Assembly (NCBI RefSeq): GCF_021389955.1
Contig: NZ_CP089980.1
Coordinates: forward strand, 6,319,001 to 6,383,000
Origin: Fulvivirga maritima
GTDB taxonomy: Bacteria; Bacteroidota; Bacteroidia; Cytophagales; Cyclobacteriaceae
DNA length: 64,000 bases
Direction of reading: 5' to 3'
The position numbers and the translations under genes are program-made. How positions within the stretch are numbered: the first letter of the stretch is position 1; every line of letters starts with the position of its first letter. The notes below the pieces were generated by a model. That model was not told the DNA's origin, did not search any database, and saw nothing but the letters and a program-made list of their open reading frames with translations. Below are positions 1 to 53,236 of this stretch, in pieces.

Positions 1-2196
1 AATGCAGAGCTATCATTTTTAAAATACCTGACAAGACAATACACTAAAACGTCTCCATTTAGCCGCTTCACATGCCTAGCCATTGGAGATTCTACACTAA
101 CTACTAACAACCAAATTAAGGCATCTGCAAGACTCAATAATTATATATATGCTTATGTGTTAGGTTTATGCATGCAAGTTACTGACGTGGCTGCACACAT
201 TCCCATTAAACTGAACCCCTCTTTAACCCCTGAAGCTACCCATTATACCTTTCTTGTCAATTTTAACAATGTCGAAATTTTTCAAACAATAGAGAGAAAT
301 AGCGCTATCGATCTTATCATTACTTGTGTAGATGACTTGGTTGACATCAGTTCAATAAGCCAAAAGTTAATATCCTTTTTTCCTGATTCTACAGCAAATC
401 AACTGCAGAACTACCTGACAGGATTATTGGAGGTTGGTATATTAGAAACCAATTTAAATATATCCGGTATTGATCCTGACTGGCCTTCAAAATTCATATC
501 ATTCCTTACCAAGCTAAGTCATAAAACCTCTAAGATTGAGGGATTATTAAATGGCATGCTCTTTCTACAACAAGCAGCCAATCAACTGAGTGATATTAGT
601 ACTTCTGATAGGCAAATTCTTCTGAGCAAAGCCCTGGAAATATTTAAAGGTGCAGCCAAGTCATTCTGTCAAATGAATCACCTTCCATTCTCAGAGGGTG
701 AAGATAACCGAATAGCCAAAAAGCAGTTTTTAGAAACATTAGAAAATGACATCTCTTTCAAAAAGAGATACTTTAATGGATTTTACTTTACAGAAGAAAA
801 TTTATTTTACGAAGATGCCTCCATCACTATAAATTCTGCCTTAGGCATAGATGAGATTAGGCCCCTAGTCAAGAACCTTGATCTACTCTTACAAGAATTA
901 TCGCCACTTGCATTTGAGAATATTAATCAAGAAAAAATGACAGCCTTTTTTAATCACTATTATGAAAATTATGAGAGTGTACCATTAATAAAATTCTATG
1001 AGAGTTATTACAAAAATTATGTAAAGCCGAACAAGAAAGGTGAGATTTCGGCCATTTCTAGCTCTATTGATCTTTTGCAAAAAGAACAATTTGCTATAGA
1101 AAAGGACTATAAAGATAAACTAAAAGAATTACTGCTAAATAAGAAGGAAGTGGAAGGTGTTATTAATTTCACTTTAGATGAAATTAAAGGGTTAAACCTC
1201 CAAAAATCAGAACCAATAGCATATTCTAAAGCGGCACATATCCAATTTTATAAAAATAATAAGGGAGATATACAAGGAGTAGTAAACAGTGTATTTACAG
1301 GATATGGAAGAGGTTATGGTCGCTTTTTACACCTTTTCCCTAAACAAATAACGGAAGAACTTAATCGCATCAACAAAGAGATTCTCTCTGATTATACACC
1401 TGCAGAAGTAAGAGACGCCTCATCTTTTAATGCCAACCTACATCCTTCTCTTTTACCTCATGAAATTATTATTCCAGGTGGTAATCCTAGCCTCTCTTCT
1501 GAGCAACAAATTTCCATTGAAAATATCATTGTGAAGCATAACCATGGTAAAGTCTCTCTAGCTCATGCACTTACTGGTAAAACTATACTCCCATTTGATC
1601 TTTGCTTGCAGACCTCCAGAACGAGATCAGAACTTTATCAGCTACTCACCTCATTTTCACAAAAAACTGCTAATTCCATTTATTCATTTGTTAACCACAT
1701 ACATAATATCATAGGAGAACAGGATATTAACCATGTTATTATGATACCTAGAATAGCTTTTGAAAATGACTTGGTACTATCGAGAAAATGCTGGAAAATA
1801 CCCAACCAATCACTTCCTGAAAATAGCCATTTAGTAAGCGAATTTGATTATTATCATGCATTGAATAAATGGAGAGGTCAATATGGCATTCCGAAAGCAT
1901 GCTTCTTATTCATTACTCCTACTCATAATCTTGCCTCCAAAAATTCCACTTTCGATGATTATAAGCCCCAATATATTGACTTTGAATCTCCTTTATTAGT
2001 AAAACTATTTCGAAAAGCTACACGCAAAGCAGGAAAATACATTAGGATTGAAGAAATGCTCCCCGCCAAAAATAATCTACTTAATGAGCATGTAAATGAA
2101 ACTTTGGTTCAGTGGTATAAGCTTAACCCAGCCGAACCAAATATCAATTTAAATACAATAAAAAGTCTTCAAATGATAGATCATTATGCTAACTAA
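1..2196 (+). CDS. LanB-type lantibiotic dehydratase, glutamylation domain protein (5' end outside window)
   Basis: This is the N-terminal (tRNA-dependent glutamylation) half of a class I lanthipeptide dehydratase, the enzyme that glutamylates Ser/Thr of a precursor peptide. The frame is open from base 1: the first codons read ...KYLTRQYTKTSPFSRFT, the conserved start-of-domain signature (tPFgrFt) of Lant_dehydr_N, so the gene begins to the left and the GTG at 157 is internal. Later family landmarks are PSLLPHEIIIPGG, HALTGKTILPFDLCLQTSRT and the closing RKAGKYIRIEEMLP. The protein ends after this domain. The elimination domain is a separate gene that overlaps the 3' end by 11 bp, as in thiopeptide and pinensin systems. 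It acts in the cytoplasm with the two downstream proteins. A PEARL-type aminoacyl ligase is an alternative, but the adjacent elimination and LanC-like genes favour a dehydratase. Confidence 0.88.
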   Translation, partial: NAELSFLKYLTRQYTKTSPFSRFTCLAIGDSTLTTNNQIKASARLNNYIYAYVLGLCMQVTDVAAHIPIKLNPSLTPEATHYTFLVNFNNVEIFQTIERNSAIDLIITCVDDLVDISSISQKLISFFPDSTANQLQNYLTGLLEVGILETNLNISGIDPDWPSKFISFLTKLSHKTSKIEGLLNGMLFLQQAANQLSDISTSDRQILLSKALEIFKGAAKSFCQMNHLPFSEGEDNRIAKKQFLETLENDISFKKRYFNGFYFTEENLFYEDASITINSALGIDEIRPLVKNLDLLLQELSPLAFENINQEKMTAFFNHYYENYESVPLIKFYESYYKNYVKPNKKGEISAISSSIDLLQKEQFAIEKDYKDKLKELLLNKKEVEGVINFTLDEIKGLNLQKSEPIAYSKAAHIQFYKNNKGDIQGVVNSVFTGYGRGYGRFLHLFPKQITEELNRINKEILSDYTPAEVRDASSFNANLHPSLLPHEIIIPGGNPSLSSEQQISIENIIVKHNHGKVSLAHALTGKTILPFDLCLQTSRTRSELYQLLTSFSQKTANSIYSFVNHIHNIIGEQDINHVIMIPRIAFENDLVLSRKCWKIPNQSLPENSHLVSEFDYYHALNKWRGQYGIPKACFLFITPTHNLASKNSTFDDYKPQYIDFESPLLVKLFRKATRKAGKYIRIEEMLPAKNNLLNEHVNETLVQWYKLNPAEPNINLNTIKSLQMIDHYAN

Positions 2197-3010
2197 ATGG
2201 TTATCCTATCATATTTATACTGACCTGGATAGAAACACAGTACTGACTGAACATGTAGCTTATCTTATCAATCACTTAGAAGCTAACAACCTTCTTCGTC
2301 AATATTTTTATATCCGTTATAATGAAGGAGGGCCACATATCAGACTACGTTTAAAGGTTGAGAAATCTAATCAACCCAAAGTCTCTTTCGAATTAAAAAA
2401 TTGTTTTAATAGCGATGATTTTAATGTACAAGAGCAAATATACCAACAAGAAACCTCCAGATACGGAGGCCAAATAAGTGCGCTAGTGTGTGAAGAACAT
2501 TTCCAGCTTTCATCCGAAACCTGTCTTTATGCCTTGACTCTACCGTCCAATGTATTGAGTAAAGCTCTGATTTTGCATTACACCATGATGAGATCTTATA
2601 TCTGTGAGCATAAGGCACTCATAAAACTATTCCATTCTTATATGACTCACTGGTTTGCTCACTCCCATTTGGCTGAAGCAAACAAAACCACCAATGAATT
2701 AATCAACACATACTTTGAGCCCAGATATCAGAGCATGAAAAACATATCATTCTTCCAGAATCTAGAAAAAATGGTTTTAGGCACTAAACCACACGCCACA
2801 GACTGGTTAAGTAAGTGGGTTAGAGGCAATAAACACACCTTAAACCATTTAAATGGCTGCCTGGATGATAAAAGCTTTTTCAGTGTGTTAGAAAGTCTCA
2901 TACATATGACTAACAATCGCCTAGGAGTTTATAATTACGATGAAGCTTTCCTAGCCTTTTTACTTAAAAGAACTATAGAAGATTTATCCCATCATGAACA
3001 ATCTTCATAA
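2186..3010 (+). CDS. Stand-alone LanB elimination domain (thiopeptide-type bacteriocin biosynthesis / Lant_dehydr_C)
   Basis: This 274-residue protein is the glutamate-elimination half of a split class I dehydratase; it would remove glutamate from glutamylated Ser/Thr to give Dha/Dhb. Residues expected from NisB-type elimination domains are visible: Arg44 in FYIRYNEGG, the HIRLRL strand at 51-56, Glu89 and Arg92 in QQETSRYGG, and His240 followed by N-R in IHMTNNRLG. The active site therefore looks intact. The start codon lies inside the last codons of the glutamylation gene and the stop overlaps the lanC-like start, so the three genes are probably translationally coupled in one operon. Split dehydratases are established for thiopeptides and for the pinensin lanthipeptides of Bacteroidota. 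Confidence 0.88.
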   Translation: MLTKWLSYHIYTDLDRNTVLTEHVAYLINHLEANNLLRQYFYIRYNEGGPHIRLRLKVEKSNQPKVSFELKNCFNSDDFNVQEQIYQQETSRYGGQISALVCEEHFQLSSETCLYALTLPSNVLSKALILHYTMMRSYICEHKALIKLFHSYMTHWFAHSHLAEANKTTNELINTYFEPRYQSMKNISFFQNLEKMVLGTKPHATDWLSKWVRGNKHTLNHLNGCLDDKSFFSVLESLIHMTNNRLGVYNYDEAFLAFLLKRTIEDLSHHEQSS

Positions 3011-4850
3011 TTATATAAATCCGCATATGTCTGAGCTGCAACAGCAAAAGCTCAAAAATTGGCATAATGAATTTAACAGTCAGCTGATAGGCCAAAGTAT
3101 ACAAGACAAAGACATGGCTTATTGGGAAACACTTGACTTTGATAAGGATAAGCATGCTCATAGTTTTTATAGACCTGACTTCACCATATATAAAGGCAAT
3201 GCAGGTATTCTCCTTTACCTAATCTCTTGCTACAAGTATTCAAAAAAACATATATACCTTAATCTTGTCCAAAGAAATTTAAATTGGCTCAGACGCGCTG
3301 TAGAAGATCATGACAAGAATCATTTTGCACTTTATACCGGAAAAACCGGTCTTGCCTACGTACTGAGCACATTATACGATCTTACCTTGCATCCCCCCTT
3401 ACTTAAAGAAGCTACAGAATTGGTATTGAAAAATAAATCGTCTTTTACCAATCATTATAGTGATGATTTACTGAGTGGCCTTGCCGGTAATATTATAGCC
3501 TTGGCTCAAATACATACTCAATCTGAAAATAAGGAGATATTCAAACTTTTGTGTAGTAGCATCGATGATATAATAAACAATGTTTACTTATCTATTAAAG
3601 GTTTAAAATGGCGCTATAGGCCCAACTATATTGATAGCCTCTGTGGGCTTTCTCATGGTGCCGCCGGTATAGGGTATGCACTGATAGAAGTTGGCAAATG
3701 CTACAATGCCCATGGTTTGGTATGGCTGGGAGAGCAAGCATTTAAGTATGAAAATCAACACTTTAATGAAATTGATTCCTCCTGGCCTGATCTACGTATA
3801 CACCCCAAAAAGCTAGAAAATCCACAATCCGTAGGCTCTCCGCATGAGTTAATGAAAGGCGAAAAGGTAAATGGTTGGGCTCATGGTAGCGCTGGTATAG
3901 CTATGACGAGACTAAGGGCTCATTATCACTTAGAGTCTATATCATATTTAGAACAAACTGAAGCAATACTCCAGGCAATGCAATCGGTACCTCGCTCTGC
4001 ATTGAACTATTCCTTAGCCAACGGTTTTGGCGCAAACGCTTACCTATTGGCTGAAGCTGGATACAAATTAAACAAGAAAGAGTACACACAATCAGCATAC
4101 CAAATCATAGAAAAAGCCATGATGCTAAAAAGGGAAAAAGGTTATTTTCCTGCAGGCTGGGACAGTTGTAAAGCTGATCTGTCAGTATTTATGGGTGAAA
4201 CCGGGATCGCATATTCCATACTTAAGTTAATAAGCCCATATTGTTCAGATCATTTAGTTTTACCTGAACTTAAAAAAAATAAAAACAGCCAATATTCAGG
4301 TTGTTTCCCTGATATCAAAAATATATTAAGAAAGATCAGCAAAAGATACTTTCCTAAATCCTATGAAAACATAAAATTCACCTCCGATATAACTAATGAA
4401 CAAGAGCCCTACCAGCTTATTAATAATATAAGGTTTGAGGGAGATAATAATAAAACCGATGATAATTTTATAATAGAAAAGAAAAAATTAGATATGGAAG
4501 TAAGCCCAGTAACTTTTGAGTTCCTATCTGATAACTATCAAAGAATAGTAAATAAACTGACATTTAAGGCTGGTAAATTTCAGCTCAGTGAGTATGCGAC
4601 TATAATAGAGTTAGCTGATGAGGTAAAAGTATTGGTAAAGCACAGGTACGGAGTGGAAGAATTGAGACTCGAAGCGCTATCTCAGGCAATAATCGCTTCA
4701 ATAAACCAAGGGAAATATTCATTCAATTCAATAGCTGAAAACATTTTATCTAAGTTAGATGAAACGCAAAAAATAGGTCAGCTAAAACACATAATAAAAA
4801 AGCAACTCAAACAACTCTATTTAAATGGAATTATAAAGCAGGTAGAATAA
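2994..4850 (+). CDS. LanC-like cyclase-fold protein without zinc ligands, with C-terminal extension
   Basis: Residues 1 to about 430 have the repeated Gly-rich helices of the LanC alpha/alpha barrel: LYTGKTGLAY, LLSGLAGNII, LCGLSHGAAGIGYAL (His221), GWAHGSAGIAMTR, SLANGFGANAYLL and FMGETGIAYS. In zinc-dependent LanC/LanM cyclases the fourth and fifth motifs read W-C-(Y/H)-G and L-C-H-G. Here the positions are Ala296, Ala342 and Asn343, so all three zinc ligands are absent. Class III LanKC cyclase domains show the same loss, so a fold without zinc is not unprecedented. About 185 residues follow the barrel (430-618), with the end resembling a helical or winged-helix tail that I do not recognise. 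The start overlaps the dehydratase gene and the stop lies inside a terminator hairpin shared with the convergent precursor. Cyclase, chaperone or scaffold roles are all possible. Confidence 0.85.
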   Translation: MNNLHNYINPHMSELQQQKLKNWHNEFNSQLIGQSIQDKDMAYWETLDFDKDKHAHSFYRPDFTIYKGNAGILLYLISCYKYSKKHIYLNLVQRNLNWLRRAVEDHDKNHFALYTGKTGLAYVLSTLYDLTLHPPLLKEATELVLKNKSSFTNHYSDDLLSGLAGNIIALAQIHTQSENKEIFKLLCSSIDDIINNVYLSIKGLKWRYRPNYIDSLCGLSHGAAGIGYALIEVGKCYNAHGLVWLGEQAFKYENQHFNEIDSSWPDLRIHPKKLENPQSVGSPHELMKGEKVNGWAHGSAGIAMTRLRAHYHLESISYLEQTEAILQAMQSVPRSALNYSLANGFGANAYLLAEAGYKLNKKEYTQSAYQIIEKAMMLKREKGYFPAGWDSCKADLSVFMGETGIAYSILKLISPYCSDHLVLPELKKNKNSQYSGCFPDIKNILRKISKRYFPKSYENIKFTSDITNEQEPYQLINNIRFEGDNNKTDDNFIIEKKKLDMEVSPVTFEFLSDNYQRIVNKLTFKAGKFQLSEYATIIELADEVKVLVKHRYGVEELRLEALSQAIIASINQGKYSFNSIAENILSKLDETQKIGQLKHIIKKQLKQLYLNGIIKQVE

Positions 4851-4869: not shown

Positions 4870-5061
4870 TTAAGGATTAATTTCTAATGAAGTTTTGCTA
4901 GCATCACAAGTACAAGTCTCGTGAGTATCTGTGTCTTCGGTATGTGTAGGGTGACTAGCTGCGCCTCCAAGTATTTTTTGAGCTTTTTCTTCATCAATAC
5001 TGGTAGCGAAACTTTGAACTTTTAAGTCATCTAAACTTAACTTTCCATTTTGATTATTCAT
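4870..5061 (-). CDS. Lanthipeptide (pinensin-like) precursor peptide with His/Cys/acid-rich core
   Basis: This gene encodes a 63-residue precursor from the ATG at 5061 (a second ATG at 5070 adds three residues; a frame running upstream to 5124 crosses the likely promoter region and is not needed). The leader has the Bacteroidota RiPP pattern KLSLDDLKVQSFATSID followed by a double-glycine site, KILGG. The 30-residue core after GG starts AASHPTHTEDTDTHETCTCD and ends ASKTSLEINP. It has ten Ser/Thr, two Cys in a TCTC motif, three His and many Asp/Glu. Ser/Thr next to Cys is what a LanB/LanC system would dehydrate and cyclise, and the leader fits the pinensin family. The gene is convergent with, not upstream of, the enzyme genes. 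The putative promoter overlaps a perfect palindrome. The core composition suggests metal binding, which is inference. Confidence 0.85.
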   Translation of the reverse strand: MNNQNGKLSLDDLKVQSFATSIDEEKAQKILGGAASHPTHTEDTDTHETCTCDASKTSLEINP

Positions 5062-5133
5062 TTTAATCATTTTTAATATTAAGCCTACTCTCTTAGAGGT
5101 TTTCAGCATCGCCTCACGTTGCAACGATACCTG

Positions 5134-5171
5134 AAAATATAAAAGAATTAACTTAAACGCAACATTGTTGC
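5134..5171 (-). promoter_or_regulatory. Promoter of precursor gene overlapped by Fur-family-like palindrome
   Basis: On the minus strand TTG (5162-5160), an 18-nt spacer and TATATTTT (5141-5134) match the Bacteroidota -33/-7 pattern TTG-N17-23-TAnnTTTG. The TTG lies inside GCAACATTGTTGC (5159-5171), a perfect 6-1-6 palindrome. The same palindrome in the same register covers the -33 element of folE (6498-6520), and a related one covers that of the TonB receptor gene (49342-49356). A repressor bound here would block the promoter. The palindrome is certain; the promoter call rests on consensus only. Confidence 0.6.
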
Positions 5172-5596
5172 AATTAAATAACTATGAATAAATGAGGTTT
5201 TTTTATAATATTAACATCATCAACAATACATTACATGCTTTTTACAGCAACAGAATATGCATCGAAAAATATTTGTTAAAGTTACCAACATCTAATCCTC
5301 TAAAAATTAGTTAGTAGCCTATTATAGCATCTCTATACTACCGAATAATCCATTTAACATCCGGTTACAAAATCATTATATTATAAAATACTTACTTCCT
5401 CGAATTTACTCCCTCATACGATATGCCATTACCCGAATTGGGCGCCCAGGTGAGCTACATCCTTAAGAGGAATAATTCTTTCTAGCAATTGAGTAAATAT
5501 CTTTTGGAATGATTTGGTTTGAATTTCTAGATATCTCAGACACGAGGAAATAAAAGAATTGGGATTGACTCTGAAACTTGTAAAACATATAACATC
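5172..5596. other. Intergenic region, no gene seen
   Basis: This stretch of about 425 AT-rich bases has no convincing ORF. A short piece on the minus strand at about 5433-5475 resembles the start of a tRNA (GGATGTAGCTCA) but cannot fold into a complete one. Nothing else is recognisable. Confidence 0.5.
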
Positions 5597-5597
5597 G

Positions 5598-5635
5598 AAA
5601 AGGTTGGCTTTTAATTATTTAAAAGTCAACCTTTT
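5598..5635 (-). terminator. Intrinsic terminator downstream of folE
   Basis: AAAAGGTTGGCTTTTAA and TTAAAAGTCAACCTTTTT pair in a long stem with one G-U wobble, 35 bp after the folE stop. The flanking A-run gives a U-run on the minus-strand transcript. Confidence 0.75.
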
Positions 5636-5669
5636 TAACCATCTAATAGCGCGTTCCAAATTTCACTTT

Positions 5670-6347
5670 TTATATATGTTGATAGAATTCATTACGAAAA
5701 TCAATATCGTTGAATTTTCCACCATATTCTAAAGTCGTGGTCTTACTGGTTTTGTCTTTCACTCCACGTGTAGAAACACACAAATGTTCTGCCTCTACCA
5801 CCACAATCACATCATCTGTCTGAAGAGCATTTTTTAGCTCTTCGAAGATCTGAAGGGTCATACGTTCCTGTACCTGAGGTCTACGACCATAATATTCTAC
5901 TACTCTGTTAATTTTAGAAAGGCCTATTACTTTACCCGAAGAAATATAGCCTACATGTGCCTTCCCGATAATTGGCAAAAAATGATGCTCACAAGCTGAT
6001 GAGAAACTTATATCCTTCTCTATCAGCATTTTATTGTACTGATATTTATTATCAAAAACGGATAGTGAAGGTTTGTTTTCAGGATTAAGACCATTAAACA
6101 ACTCCTTTACATACATTTTTGCCACGCGGTATGGAGTACCTTTAAGGCTATCATCAGTAAGATCCAAGCCAAGCTCTTCCATAATGCCAGCAAACAATTT
6201 CTCAATATTCGTTACCTTTTCTTCATCTGACTTTGCAAATGCATCTTTTCTTAATGGTGTTTCCACAGAACTCATCACATGATTATCTCCATTTATGTCA
6301 TACTGTTTTCTTTTCAATAGATCATTGTCTGTTTTCATATTCGTCAA
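5670..6347 (-). CDS. folE: GTP cyclohydrolase I (zinc-dependent type)
   Basis: The enzyme converts GTP to 7,8-dihydroneopterin triphosphate, the entry step to folate and to other pterins. The 225-residue protein has the full catalytic domain from about residue 45. The zinc-site Cys and paired His lie in SSACEHHFLPIIG and the second Cys in EAEHLCVSTRGV; KINRVVEYYGRRPQVQERMT is the usual allosteric/active-site segment. About 40 N-terminal residues are not conserved, and a start at one of the internal Met codons is possible. The gene is monocistronic, with its own terminator, and its promoter is overlapped by the palindrome shared with the lanthipeptide precursor and the TonB operon. Control of folE or folE2 genes by Zur is known in several bacteria, which is one reason to suspect zinc here. 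Confidence 0.95.
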   Translation of the reverse strand: MTNMKTDNDLLKRKQYDINGDNHVMSSVETPLRKDAFAKSDEEKVTNIEKLFAGIMEELGLDLTDDSLKGTPYRVAKMYVKELFNGLNPENKPSLSVFDNKYQYNKMLIEKDISFSSACEHHFLPIIGKAHVGYISSGKVIGLSKINRVVEYYGRRPQVQERMTLQIFEELKNALQTDDVIVVVEAEHLCVSTRGVKDKTSKTTTLEYGGKFNDIDFRNEFYQHI

Positions 6348-6476: not shown

Positions 6477-6520
6477 TAAAGGTAAGTGAAATATCATTAA
6501 ATGCAACATTGATGCATTTA
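6477..6520 (-). promoter_or_regulatory. folE promoter with 23-bp operator palindrome over the -33 element
   Basis: The palindrome at 6498-6520 reads TAAATGCAACA-T-TGATGCATTTA, with a single mismatched pair; its core fits 7-1-7 Fur-family geometry. On the minus strand the TTG inside it (6506-6504) is followed after exactly 19 nt by TACCTTTA (6484-6477), close to TAnnTTTG. The alignment with the precursor promoter is in the same register (ATGTTGC, one base, TTTAA). The folE start is about 130 bp downstream. Confidence 0.65.
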
Positions 6521-6705
6521 AGTGGTCGATAAAATGGAAATATATCACTAACTTCCGTCCGAAATCATGGCCTATAGAATCGATCAGATTGTCCATAGAC
6601 TTCGATGATGGGCTAGAGGATGACACGATCCTTTTTAAGCAACAAATAAATTACTCAAAATAGATGTCGGAATTTGAATGGATTGAGGGGTTTAATTGAG
6701 TAGGA

Positions 6706-49250: not shown

Positions 49251-49321
49251 TAATCCTCTCTCCTCCCCAATCACACCAATCTCCAGTAACTGATTACCGA
49301 CTAGAATAGTACCCACTTCTT

Positions 49322-49405
49322 AAATGCAACAATAATTCATTTGCAATTTTATTGCATTTAAAAACTCCCTTATGTATCCTTGCACCCTATTGCAACTATA
49401 TTGCA
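49322..49405 (+). promoter_or_regulatory. TonB receptor promoter with clustered operator palindromes
   Basis: TGCAATTTTATTGCA (49342-49356) is a 7-1-7 inverted repeat with one mismatched pair. TGCAACTATATTGCA (49391-49405) is a second, weaker copy, and AAATGCAACA (49322-49331) looks like a half-site. The TTG within the first (49352-49354) is followed after 20 nt by TATCCTTG (49375-49382), one base from TAnnTTTG. Sites at the -33 element and around the expected start of transcription would give strong repression. The same motif covers the folE and lanthipeptide precursor promoters. Confidence 0.62.
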
Positions 49406-49431
49406 TATAAATAAAAGATGCGTTTCCCTAC

Positions 49432-51846
49432 ATGAGAGGTATAATATTTAAATCTGTTTACATCACATTATTCAATACACTTTGCCTTTATGGATTTTCA
49501 TCTGCACAGGAAAAAGTAATAAGAGGCCAAGTGCTCAACCTTGATAACGAGGTGTTAGAAGGTGCTAGTATTATGCTGACTCCTGGCAACGTCATTACTA
49601 TTGCGGATGAAAAAGGCAACTTTATTATCCCACTAAAAGCCAACAAGTCATATACCATTACTATATCATACATAGGCTACATTTCGAAAGAAATAGCTGT
49701 TTCTCATCAAGATACCTCTAATCCGCTAAAGATACAGCTACACCCATCTCTACAAGAGCTTGAGGAAGTAACTATACACACTAACCCGGATAAACTAGCC
49801 AAAAAAGAAGAAGCATTAAATGTAGAAATTGTCAATAAAGAATTTATTAGAAAAAATCTGGGTGGCAGCCTTATGCAATCTCTAGAACGAATACCAGGGG
49901 TGAGCAGCATAGGCATCGGCTCTGGCCAATCCAAACCACTGATCAGAGGGCTTGGTTTCAACCGAGTATCTGTAATAGACAAAGGCATAAAACATGAAGC
50001 CCAGCAGTGGGGTGCAGATCACGGCTTAGAAATAGACCAATTTGGAGCTTCTAAAATCAAAATACTAAAAGGCCCTGCTTCATTTATATATGGCTCAGAT
50101 GCCATTGGCGGGGTAATAGACATACTGCCTCCACCCGCTCCCAATAAAAACTCCCTTGGTGGAGCTGTAGACATTATCGGCAAAAGCAACAACAATTTAT
50201 TAGGGGGCTCTTTCAACTTATACGGAAGAGGCAATTCCTTATTTTTTAATACGCGTGTTACTCATCAAAATTACGGAGACTATAAAGTGCCCACAGAAAG
50301 TGTTAGTGTATACAATGCCCCCGTACGCCTCCACAATAATGAAGTCAGAAATACTGCTGGCAGAGAAACCAGCCTCCATTTGGATGTTGGCTTGATAAAA
50401 GATGATTTAAAATCTACCTTTTACATCACCAATACCCATAGCAAGAGCGGATTTTTTGCCAACGCTCATGGGCTGGAACCTCGCCAGGTAGACACAGAAC
50501 TACACGACCACTCCAGCCGGGACATTCACCATCCTTTTCAGGAAGTGAATCATTTCAAAATCATTAATGCTAGTGAATTTACATGGTCTACTAATCATAA
50601 ACTAATAACAGAACTAGGGTATCAAAATAATTTACGAGAAGAACTAAGCAACTATGTTACCCATGGCTACATGCCAGCTGCCTATCCTGAAAATTTAGAT
50701 ATCCCTGAAGATCAGGAAAGGAAATTTAAAAAAGACATTTTCTCTGCCAATGTTCGTAACCTATTTTGGCTAGGCAAGCATAATTTAACAATAGGCATTA
50801 ATTCATCCTTTCAAGATAATAAAATTGGTGGATGGGGCTTTCTTATTCCATCATTTCAACAGCTTACGGCCGGAAGTTATATTTATGACAAATATGAAAT
50901 CAACAAAAAATGGCTCCTTCATGCTGCTATCAGGTGGGACTATGGCAAAGTGAAAATAGAGGAGTACTATGATTGGTTTGAATCTAATAACACTGAAAGT
51001 AACTCAGAATCCATATTCATTCAACGCTCCAGTAATCAATCCAGGGACTTCAATAATATGTCATGGTCTGCAGGAGTCAATTATAACCATGATCAACTTA
51101 ATTTAAAGCTAAATATCGGAAAAAGCTTTCGTATGCCAATAGCCAAAGAATTAGGTGCTAATGGCGTAAACTATCATTATTACAGTTATGAAAGAGGCGA
51201 TATAGATTTAGACCCTGAGCAGTCATATCAGGCAGACCTGGGCGTTACCTGGTCAGCACCTAGCTGGACGATCGAAGCTACACCGTTCTTCAACTATTTT
51301 CAAAATTATATCTATCTCAACCCTACCTCAGAGCATGACTATCTCTATGGAGCAGGGAATCAAGTATTTGAATACACCCAAAGTAAAGTAATGCGCTACG
51401 GCGGGGAGCTATCTGCACAATGGAATTTTCATAAATCATTAAGCACTGAAGTAACCGGTGAATATGTTTATGCCCAGCAGCTTAACGGAGAGAAAAAAGG
51501 GTTCTCGCTCCCCTTCTCACCTGCACCGTCAGCAATTTTTTCTATATCCTGGTCGCCAGCCCTAAAAAAGCTCAACGAAACTTCATTTTCCATTGACTAC
51601 CGAGTTACCGCCAGACAAAACCGGATAGTACCTCCAGAAAAAGAAACTCCTGGCTCACAGGTTATCCATATCAGAGCCAGCACCAGTATCCAAATAAGAG
51701 AGCAGCCTTTACATATCAGTTTGCAGGCGCATAACCTTTTGAACACTAAATATTTCAATCATACCAGCTTTTATAGGCTTATAGATATGCCTGAAGCCGG
51801 ACGAAACATAATTCTATCAGTGAACATACCTTTTACAATTAAATAA
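49432..51846 (+). CDS. TonB-dependent outer membrane receptor, likely metal (zinc) uptake
   Basis: The 804-residue protein has a signal peptide and a carboxypeptidase-regulatory-like domain (about 28-105, IRGQVLNLDNEVLEGA). A plug follows (about 120-235: LGGSLMQSLERIPGVSS, GGVIDILPP), then a 22-strand barrel ending in a C-terminal aromatic residue region (NIILSVNIPFTIK). A loop at about 345-375 is rich in His (HGLEP, LHDHSSRDIHHPF, VNHF), like the zinc-binding loops of ZnuD receptors. Two His/acid-rich lipoproteins follow in the same direction. The promoter carries the palindromes shared with folE and the lanthipeptide precursor. Import of a metal or metal complex is the best guess; zinc is favoured by the His-rich loop and the context. 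Confidence 0.85.
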   Translation: MRGIIFKSVYITLFNTLCLYGFSSAQEKVIRGQVLNLDNEVLEGASIMLTPGNVITIADEKGNFIIPLKANKSYTITISYIGYISKEIAVSHQDTSNPLKIQLHPSLQELEEVTIHTNPDKLAKKEEALNVEIVNKEFIRKNLGGSLMQSLERIPGVSSIGIGSGQSKPLIRGLGFNRVSVIDKGIKHEAQQWGADHGLEIDQFGASKIKILKGPASFIYGSDAIGGVIDILPPPAPNKNSLGGAVDIIGKSNNNLLGGSFNLYGRGNSLFFNTRVTHQNYGDYKVPTESVSVYNAPVRLHNNEVRNTAGRETSLHLDVGLIKDDLKSTFYITNTHSKSGFFANAHGLEPRQVDTELHDHSSRDIHHPFQEVNHFKIINASEFTWSTNHKLITELGYQNNLREELSNYVTHGYMPAAYPENLDIPEDQERKFKKDIFSANVRNLFWLGKHNLTIGINSSFQDNKIGGWGFLIPSFQQLTAGSYIYDKYEINKKWLLHAAIRWDYGKVKIEEYYDWFESNNTESNSESIFIQRSSNQSRDFNNMSWSAGVNYNHDQLNLKLNIGKSFRMPIAKELGANGVNYHYYSYERGDIDLDPEQSYQADLGVTWSAPSWTIEATPFFNYFQNYIYLNPTSEHDYLYGAGNQVFEYTQSKVMRYGGELSAQWNFHKSLSTEVTGEYVYAQQLNGEKKGFSLPFSPAPSAIFSISWSPALKKLNETSFSIDYRVTARQNRIVPPEKETPGSQVIHIRASTSIQIREQPLHISLQAHNLLNTKYFNHTSFYRLIDMPEAGRNIILSVNIPFTIK

Positions 51847-51852
51847 ATTAAA

Positions 51853-52668
51853 ATGATGAACAAACAACTATTATTACGAGCAAGATTAGTTCTCGTAGCT
51901 TTAGTATGCTTTAGTACTTTTATGGCTTGTAGCGATGATGACGATGAAACACCATCTCTACCAGCACCTACTATTACGGATTTTGAATATGGAGCAGGCA
52001 GTGATCACTCCACTGACCCAGTAGCTTATAAGGGCTCAGATCTACATATGGAAGCTAGTATTGAGGCAGAGGCTACTGTACAAAGCATTACTTTAACTAT
52101 TCATGGTCATGACTTAGAGCTAGCCGATGGTGAAGAAGAATGGGACTTAGAACAAGTTTTTACAGATGAAAAATACTTAGTAAAAAACCCTTCTTTTCAT
52201 GAGCATATCGATATCCCTGCCAACATTCCTGCAGGAGAATATCATATTACATTGCTTGTTACCGATGAAGCCGGACAAACTGCTGAATCTGAAGGACACC
52301 TTGAAATAATGGATGGTGATGCCTCTACTGGAGAAATCAGCTATAGCGATCTTTCTATTGATGAAACAGTAGTAAGAGGCACTGATCTACATGCAGAATT
52401 TATGATAGATGCTCATCATGGTATCCATCATATCATTGTAGATATCCACGGACATGACCTTACTGTAGGTGCAGGAGAAGAAGAATGGCATTTTGAGCAG
52501 GAGTTTGAAGACGGTTATCATGGAGAATCAGAAGTTGAATTTCATGAGCATATAGACGTGCCAGCCAATGCGCCTGTAGGAGAATACCATGCGACCTTCA
52601 TTATTGAAGACGAAGAAGGCAATGAACTGGAATTTGAATCACATATTGAAGTTGTTGCTGCTTCGTGA
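51853..52668 (+). CDS. Lipoprotein with two DUF4625 domains, His/acid-rich
   Basis: The 271-residue protein has a lipoprotein signal ending at Cys (STFMACSDDDDE). Two tandem DUF4625-type beta-sandwich units follow (about 35-155 and 156-271). Both carry the same core: IHGHDLELADGEEEW / IHGHDLTVGAGEEEW and FHEHIDIPANIPAGEYH / FHEHIDVPANAPVGEYH. Each repeat has clustered His and Glu that could bind divalent metal. It starts 6 bp after the receptor gene, so the two are cotranscribed; it may be a surface or periplasmic metal-binding partner. Metal binding is inferred from composition. Confidence 0.85.
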   Translation: MMNKQLLLRARLVLVALVCFSTFMACSDDDDETPSLPAPTITDFEYGAGSDHSTDPVAYKGSDLHMEASIEAEATVQSITLTIHGHDLELADGEEEWDLEQVFTDEKYLVKNPSFHEHIDIPANIPAGEYHITLLVTDEAGQTAESEGHLEIMDGDASTGEISYSDLSIDETVVRGTDLHAEFMIDAHHGIHHIIVDIHGHDLTVGAGEEEWHFEQEFEDGYHGESEVEFHEHIDVPANAPVGEYHATFIIEDEEGNELEFESHIEVVAAS

Positions 52669-52741: not shown

Positions 52742-53236
52742 ATGAAATTTAAAACAACATATTACTTCCTTCATTTCTTATTCATTCTTTTCGCCACAAT
52801 TATACTATTGACCGGTTGTTCTGATGATGAAGAATCTCTAGACACGGAGTATCCTGTAATAGATGAGACTTTTGCAGCTAATTACCCGCAGCAGTGCAGC
52901 GAAATAAAAAAAGGAGAAAGCTTTACTTTTATAGCTCACTTCACTGACAACCAAGAGCTTGGCTCATACAGCATAGATATACATCATAATTTTGATCATC
53001 ACAACCATAGCACAGAAGTGAATGATTGCAACATGGATCCAATAAAAACCCCTGAAAACCCATTCTTATTTATCAATAATTTCTCCATTCCTGAAGGCCA
53101 AAGAGAATACACGGCTGAAATGAGTATTGATGTGCCAGCAGATGTAGATAATGGAGATTATCATTTCCTAATTATGCTCACTGACCATGAAGGATGGCAA
53201 ACCATTAAAGGAATAAGCTTTAAAATAATAGATTAA
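52742..53236 (+). CDS. DUF4625 lipoprotein, single domain
   Basis: The 164-residue protein has a lipoprotein signal (ILLTGCSDDEES) and one DUF4625-like domain with YSIDIHHNFDHHNHSTEVND in place of the IHGHDL motif. That is six His in a short acidic stretch, again suggesting metal binding. Two Cys (QQCSE, NDCNM) could form a disulphide. It is third in the putative receptor operon and ends at a convergent terminator. Confidence 0.82.
   Translation: MKFKTTYYFLHFLFILFATIILLTGCSDDEESLDTEYPVIDETFAANYPQQCSEIKKGESFTFIAHFTDNQELGSYSIDIHHNFDHHNHSTEVNDCNMDPIKTPENPFLFINNFSIPEGQREYTAEMSIDVPADVDNGDYHFLIMLTDHEGWQTIKGISFKIID

Follow-up and report, generated by a model that had tools for sequence, protein, structure and literature searches.

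The window, 64,000 nucleotides of the genome of Fulvivirga maritima, contains part of a lanthipeptide gene cluster, a neighbouring folE gene and, further downstream, an operon for a TonB-dependent receptor and two DUF4625 proteins (Table 1). The precursor reached 45.5 bits with the pinensin family model NF038180 (cut-off 24), and its translated core is rich in histidine. The open frame of the N-terminal LanB part comprises 913 codons and begins before the window (L024:19455), where the C39-type exporter gene lanT is also located (L024), with two palindromic sites of the kind described below in front of it. As in the pinensins and NF038180, a leader above the cut-off is accompanied by a split LanB, by LanC and by a GG leader with a C39 exporter. 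With this leader family, LanB, LanC and a GG-cleaving exporter all present, the precursor is classified from its sequence as a pinensin-family class I lanthipeptide. An ABC-2 operon with a site of its own lies near the cluster. Between lanT and lanB, just before the window, an HlyD-like gene is divided into three open frames (L024:18173-19470); in relatives it is a single frame, 427 to 452 codons long, and the division reflects either frameshifts or sequencing errors.

Two further features were noted. The idea that the RNA element in the precursor leader marks the entire regulon was rejected: the genome holds three matches, one of which exceeds the gathering score, and neither of the two found away from the precursor adjoins a known site. 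Below the cut-off, RF02914 also matches in seven of 14 control genomes. A GTTGCAAC-hairpin-AGTAGGC-like stretch is kept before related precursors, including those lacking a Zur-type site. Behind folE, a long inverted repeat (5597-5637), noticed because an unrelated microRNA model happened to match it, looks like a terminator. The TonB receptor of the window scored 130.4 bits with the ZnuD model NF038289, for which the cut-off is 950.

Table 1. Features of the window and palindromic sites in the Fulvivirga maritima genome
Feature	Position	Strand	Remarks
Window positions			
LanB dehydratase, N-terminal part	1..2196	+	PF04738
Separate LanB C-terminal elimination protein	2186..3010	+	PF14028
LanC cyclase	2994..4850	+	PF05147
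Lanthipeptide precursor	4870..5061	-	63 aa; pinensin-type leader ending GG; core AASHPTHTEDTDTHETCTCDASKTSLEINP
DUF805b-like RNA element in precursor leader	5082..5116	-	RF02914, 31.6 bits; gathering score 35.6
Predicted Zur-type site, precursor promoter	5153..5177 (15-mer 5158-5172)		31.1 bits; 28.1 with outside-trained matrix
folE, GTP cyclohydrolase I	5670..6338	-	start codon by eye; one of two genome copies
Predicted Zur-type site, folE promoter	6497..6521 (15-mer 6502-6516)		32.6 bits; 30.8 with outside-trained matrix
First TonB/DUF4625 promoter site	49320..49344 (15-mer 49325-49339)		20.7 bits; 19.7 with outside-trained matrix
Second TonB/DUF4625 promoter site	49337..49361 (15-mer 49342-49356)		25.0 bits; 21.8 with outside-trained matrix; exact match
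Third TonB/DUF4625 promoter site	49386..49410 (15-mer 49391-49405)		24.1 bits; 22.3 with outside-trained matrix; exact match
TonB-dependent receptor	49432..51846	+	PF07715, PF00593; nearest curated model ZnuD
DUF4625 protein	51853..52668	+	PF15418
Second DUF4625 protein	52742..53236	+	PF15418
Genome positions			
Site	451984 (L027:2985-2999)		good palindrome; beside 361-aa lipoprotein-like protein, no Pfam family
Site	1469972		before lipoprotein behind the TonB receptor of 1472483
Site	1472483		before TonB receptor
Site	1511084		before ZIP transporter
Sites	4238785, 4238823		before MerC-ZigA (COG0523) operon
Site	5317935		before ABC/FtsX operon
Site	6308142		before ABC-2 operon
Sites	6314954, 6314993		gap between lipoprotein-to-DUF4625/TonB row and LanT
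Site	6324158		before lanthipeptide precursor
Site	6325502		before folE
Sites	6368342, 6368391		before TonB/DUF4625 operon of the window

Palindromic sites at promoters

A sequence-only reading of this DNA had described a palindrome of Fur-family type over the -33 element of the precursor, folE and TonB promoters. All three palindromes were found in the window where it had placed them, and inspection by eye confirmed that the right half-site, in gene direction, coincides with the promoter TTG in every case. TTGC(A/G)TTTAA is common to the three promoters, as had been proposed. Bacteroidota promoters follow a -33/-7 consensus. The precursor promoter reads TTG-N18-TATATTTT, the folE promoter TTG-N19-TACCTTTA and the TonB promoter TTG-N20-TATCCTTG, with a TAnnTTTG-like element 18, 19 and 20 bases after the TTG (spacings and element by eye). 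The TonB promoter carries three sites, two of which (49325-49339 and 49391-49405) are new beyond the earlier list; the first and the second are spaced 17 bp.

A 25-column matrix was built from 14 sites of the genome and remade from the ten sites outside the window. The five best matches of the remade matrix in the 64 kb window began at 6497, 5153, 49386, 49337 and 49320 (19.7 to 30.8 bits); the next, at 13.5 bits, is located within an ORF, and another followed at 9.9 bits. With up to two mismatches allowed, the 15-bp motif showed no enrichment in the window (seven matches, shuffle mean 11.9) and, being at or below chance there, was rejected as proof. The palindromes are real, and what sets them apart is the complete 25-bp palindrome together with its context, not the short motif.

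Allowing one mismatch, TGCAAYNNNRTTGCA was detected at 26 places in the genome versus ten for the reversed control. Six matches are exact, and all six are upstream of metal-type or lanthipeptide genes. They are among 14 places that precede likely start codons, a number that depends on the choice of these codons, made by rule or by eye, because several sites fall into the upstream extension of longer frames. Of the 26 places, ten are within ORFs and two are intergenic without a metal link. The genes behind the 14 sites include those for ZIP, MerC-ZigA, TonB/DUF4625 and ABC proteins, folE and the lanthipeptide. The genome-wide check for zinc genes suggested earlier, run in part, revealed a ZIP gene, the MerC-ZigA operon and additional genes for TonB and DUF4625 proteins behind the motif. 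As for the small regulon of three promoters that had been predicted, the three promoters hold, whereas "small" does not, since the regulon extends beyond them. Clustering of exact sites near the window was rejected by the genome-wide motif search. Two folE genes are present in the genome, and only the window copy has a site. That folE is controlled simply as a zinc enzyme needing zinc was rejected because of the second folE without a site, which makes the copy with the site better read as an inducible spare; induction of a spare FolE in zinc starvation would be the simplest reading.

A search of 60 same-family genomes found exact copies of TTGCAAYNNNRTTGCAA at 36 places in 26 genomes (hand sums, own genome counted), and of its reversed control at two places in one genome. 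One place was inspected in each of the 26 matching genomes, and three of these places are deep within long ORFs (L155, L159 and L163). From 34 neighbouring proteins within reach, 20 were picked by hand for Pfam assignment, yielding five TonB, four MerC, three DUF4625, one ZIP, one ApbE and six other or no families, counts that illustrate the neighbourhood and are not rates because of this choice. Eight further genomes with precursor clusters contain the extended exact motif at ten places in seven genomes, and the control at none. Among these eight and the six genomes examined for lanT sites (see below), some sites adjoin ZigA-, MerC-, ABC- or TonB-like genes, and in L179 a site is near a MerC-like and a Fur-family gene (labels by eye); other sites in these fourteen genomes have no neighbour of the ZigA, MerC, ABC, TonB or Fur type.

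Sites and core types of related precursors

Members of the leader family were searched in 390 genomes of the order and 395 of the class, with 15 and seven genomes matching, respectively, the own genome being included in both. After removal of L089, an integrase-like frame below the cut-off, 42 of 43 places were scored. The threshold for a site was set at 13.9 bits, the 99.9th percentile of 1020 single-base shuffles. A site within 200 bp was present for three of three precursors with a THT-type core versus one of 39 others, five of the latter having no residues after the leader; p is about 3e-4 for this leader-based set alone (by hand). The best of the remaining 38 non-THT precursors reached 6.8 bits. 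The one site-bearing non-THT precursor, L076 in G130, combines a pinensin leader with a perfect site and a different His- and Cys-rich core, LLCDTEDDAHCRKHSETHYATNADCCGAQIQ, and may represent another type of His-rich core that is controlled in the same way.

A second set consisted of 34 loci from Fulvivirga, Pedobacter, Sinomicrobium, Sphingobacterium, Chitinophaga, a Flexibacter and metagenome-assembled genomes. THT is present in the core of all 34 precursors, which are a biased sample of cores since they were selected by likeness to the own precursor, core included. Without exception, the 26 distinct cores compared share the THT and one invariant Asp and contain two Cys and three or more His. 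A site was found within 200 bp of 29 of the 34 precursors, mostly near -100. With the own precursor added, 30 of 35 compare with one of 39 other cores (Fisher p = 2e-14), a value that is too small because the Pedobacter loci include near-copies and are not independent.

No precursor-proximal site was detected in L129, L135, L139, L142 and L146, four Chitinophaga loci and a Flexibacter, in contrast to the 29 others. When the lanT starts of these five exceptions and of L115 were examined, all six carried a site, at 14.3 bits in L129, 12.8 in L135 and in L139, 19.6 and 19.9 in L142, 16.5 in L146 and 18.9 in L115; the two values of 12.8 bits are below the 13.9-bit threshold. The sites overlap the first lanT codons in five Chitinophaga loci, so coding constraint may explain part of this conservation. 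One of the weak cases, L135, is from Chitinophaga sp. YR627, for which PMC9248904 describes a core identical to pinensin; we assume that L135 is the cluster meant there. The own core is of the THT type, as in that strain, and the peptide family seems to include the pinensins.

Gene neighbourhoods of related clusters provided further links. The L110 precursor gene and a Fur-family gene are divergent; for the product of the latter, Zur is both the best model (45.1 bits, cut-off 167) and the best solved match, and genes for ZigA, HisI, FolE and another COG0523 protein follow this Zur-like gene. Two sites were found at lanT of L110, and a YCF48-type gene (by eye) lies opposite it, an arrangement shared with the own genome; sites beside a Fur-family gene occur in L179 and L110. 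The L111 precursor is adjoined by a DUF4625/TonB pair that carries a site, and the lanT site there is perfect. A siderophore-type TonB receptor gene, above its model cut-off, is directly upstream of the L115 precursor, and ABC-2 permease genes adjoin lanT in L112 and L142. In Pedobacter mendelii, the precursor is adjoined by a Fur-family gene (L119:1448-1909) with model scores of 30.8 bits for PerR, 30.2 for Fur and 26.0 for Zur.

Predicted regulator and possible role of the peptide

The genome contains three Fur-family genes (249015, 1650459 and 3035905), none of them near the window. The best solved matches of the 249015 product are Fur proteins. PerR genes are often found beside peroxiredoxin genes; 3035905 adjoins such a gene and received its PerR label from this context. 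For the 1650459 product, E. coli Zur is the best solved relative and Zur the best NCBIfam model, at 49.6 bits and below the cut-off of 167. Zur had been put forward as the natural candidate, which is supported by this relationship, by the ZIP and MerC-ZigA targets and by the Zur-like gene beside the L110 precursor. A site at the zur gene itself, also suggested as a check, did not appear: the matrix scan revealed none at the zur candidate 1650459, and zur auto-regulation in the Fulvivirga maritima genome was rejected.

Zur regulons of other bacteria comprise ZnuD, ZIP, COG0523/ZigA and spare copies of zinc enzymes. Here, too, one palindromic site precedes several genes for zinc uptake or zinc saving, namely ZIP, MerC-ZigA, ZnuD-like TonB receptors, DUF4625 proteins and a folE copy. 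Likeness to known Zur regulons extends to the 15-bp palindrome over the promoter and to ZigA as a target; unlike them, a lanthipeptide precursor and an exporter operon are included. The site, TGCAAC-N3-GTTGCA, differs from the Zur boxes of gamma-proteobacteria and Bacillus. The motif recurs at defined places before these genes and is conserved in other genera. From the joint evidence it is very probable that the palindromes are Zur-type Fur-family operators, with 1650459 encoding the likeliest regulator, and that they are derepressed in zinc scarcity; zinc control of the lanthipeptide cluster is likely. We infer that the regulator is Zur, the signal zinc and the action of the sites repression. 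Judging from site placement and from Zur biology elsewhere, zinc-loaded Zur would cover the -33 element, block RNA polymerase and shut the promoters, and would release them when zinc is scarce. Derepressed products would then be ZIP, the ZnuD-like TonB receptors with the DUF4625 proteins, the ZigA-type metallochaperone and the second FolE, together with the pinensin-family lanthipeptide and its export and modification operon. Points against Zur are the two-mismatch motif at no more than chance level in the window, the ten of 26 places in ORFs and the two between genes of no metal link, the missing site at 1650459 and its Zur score below the cut-off, the five of 34 relatives without a precursor site and the model scores of the L119 neighbour.

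Use of the sites by another Fur-family sensor, whether Fur, PerR or a manganese, copper or cobalt sensor, appears improbable. The genome does encode three Fur-family proteins away from the window, and the L119 neighbour scores slightly higher with the PerR and Fur models than with that of Zur; however, ZIP, ZigA, MerC-ZigA, the ZnuD-like receptors and the FolE/HisI paralogues point to zinc, and Zur is the closest match of both 1650459 and the L110 neighbour. Since nothing but the palindrome's shape (15 bp, odd centre) favours the Fur superfamily, binding by a regulator from outside it was also considered. Targets that are zinc-starvation genes and the Zur-like gene adjoining the L110 cluster make this very improbable. 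Chance palindromes in A+T-rich promoters would fit the missing enrichment of the two-mismatch motif in the window and the ten near matches within ORFs, yet they are scarcely conceivable given the ranking by the outside-trained matrix, the family-wide excess and the conserved place near -100 in other genera.

With less confidence than for Zur control, we infer that the secreted His-rich peptide would help to gather zinc. Zincophores and other metallophores are known to be under metal control, and EDDS is reportedly controlled by Zur. A secreted product and a receptor under one predicted metal regulator resemble these systems; unlike in metallophores, the product is a ribosomal lanthipeptide here, and zinc binding and uptake are putative. 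Excerpts of PMC13060382 place both Cys of pinensins in thioether rings; if so, His, Asp and Glu would be left as possible zinc ligands, which together with the co-regulated receptors points to zinc gathering. Pinensin-type lanthipeptides could quite possibly be Zur-controlled zincophores with a thioether frame and recovery by TonB/DUF4625 proteins, their antifungal action being at least partly zinc deprivation. Such a peptide would be made under Zur on zinc starvation, cleaved and exported, would bind zinc through the invariant THT His, the conserved Asp and further His within the frame of thioether rings, and would be recovered via the co-regulated TonB receptor and DUF4625 protein. Possibly, instead, Zur controls a weapon, a membrane-active lanthipeptide that would attack competitors in zinc shortage while the ABC-2 transporter confers immunity. 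The excerpts of PMC13060382 report antifungal action of pinensins via lost membrane integrity, and the ABC-2 operon with its own site near the cluster as well as the permeases beside lanT in L112 and L142 suit this role. Zinc gathering is favoured by the THT, the Asp and the three or more His found in each of the 26 distinct cores, and by the TonB receptors (ZnuD-like or siderophore-type) and DUF4625 proteins encoded within or next to clusters, all of which are compatible with a weapon too. Zinc gathering and membrane antifungal action may both hold.

The available parts of PMC9248904, PMC13060382 and PMC7268733 contain no description of zinc control of pinensins, and a literature search confined to titles and the starts of abstracts in lists of at most 10 to 25 papers gave no link between lanthipeptides and Zur control, which is weak evidence of absence. 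According to a 2020 paper (PMC7268733), no lanthipeptides other than pinensins had by then been isolated from the phylum. The present analysis provides a candidate Zur operator for several Bacteroidota groups, the family of the window organism, Pedobacter, Sphingobacterium, Chitinophaga and Sinomicrobium, and places a lanthipeptide family under predicted zinc control. If true, this would tell when such peptides are made, and a ribosomal lanthipeptide as zinc carrier would become clearly testable.

Additional members of the predicted zinc regulon are conceivable. The gene for the 361-aa lipoprotein-like protein at 451984 is a possible new one. Behind sites in L055 (1132-1566) and L170 (1523-2008), small exported proteins without a Pfam family are encoded, one of them at the end of an ABC/FtsX operon; they are alike by eye and may form a zinc-linked family.
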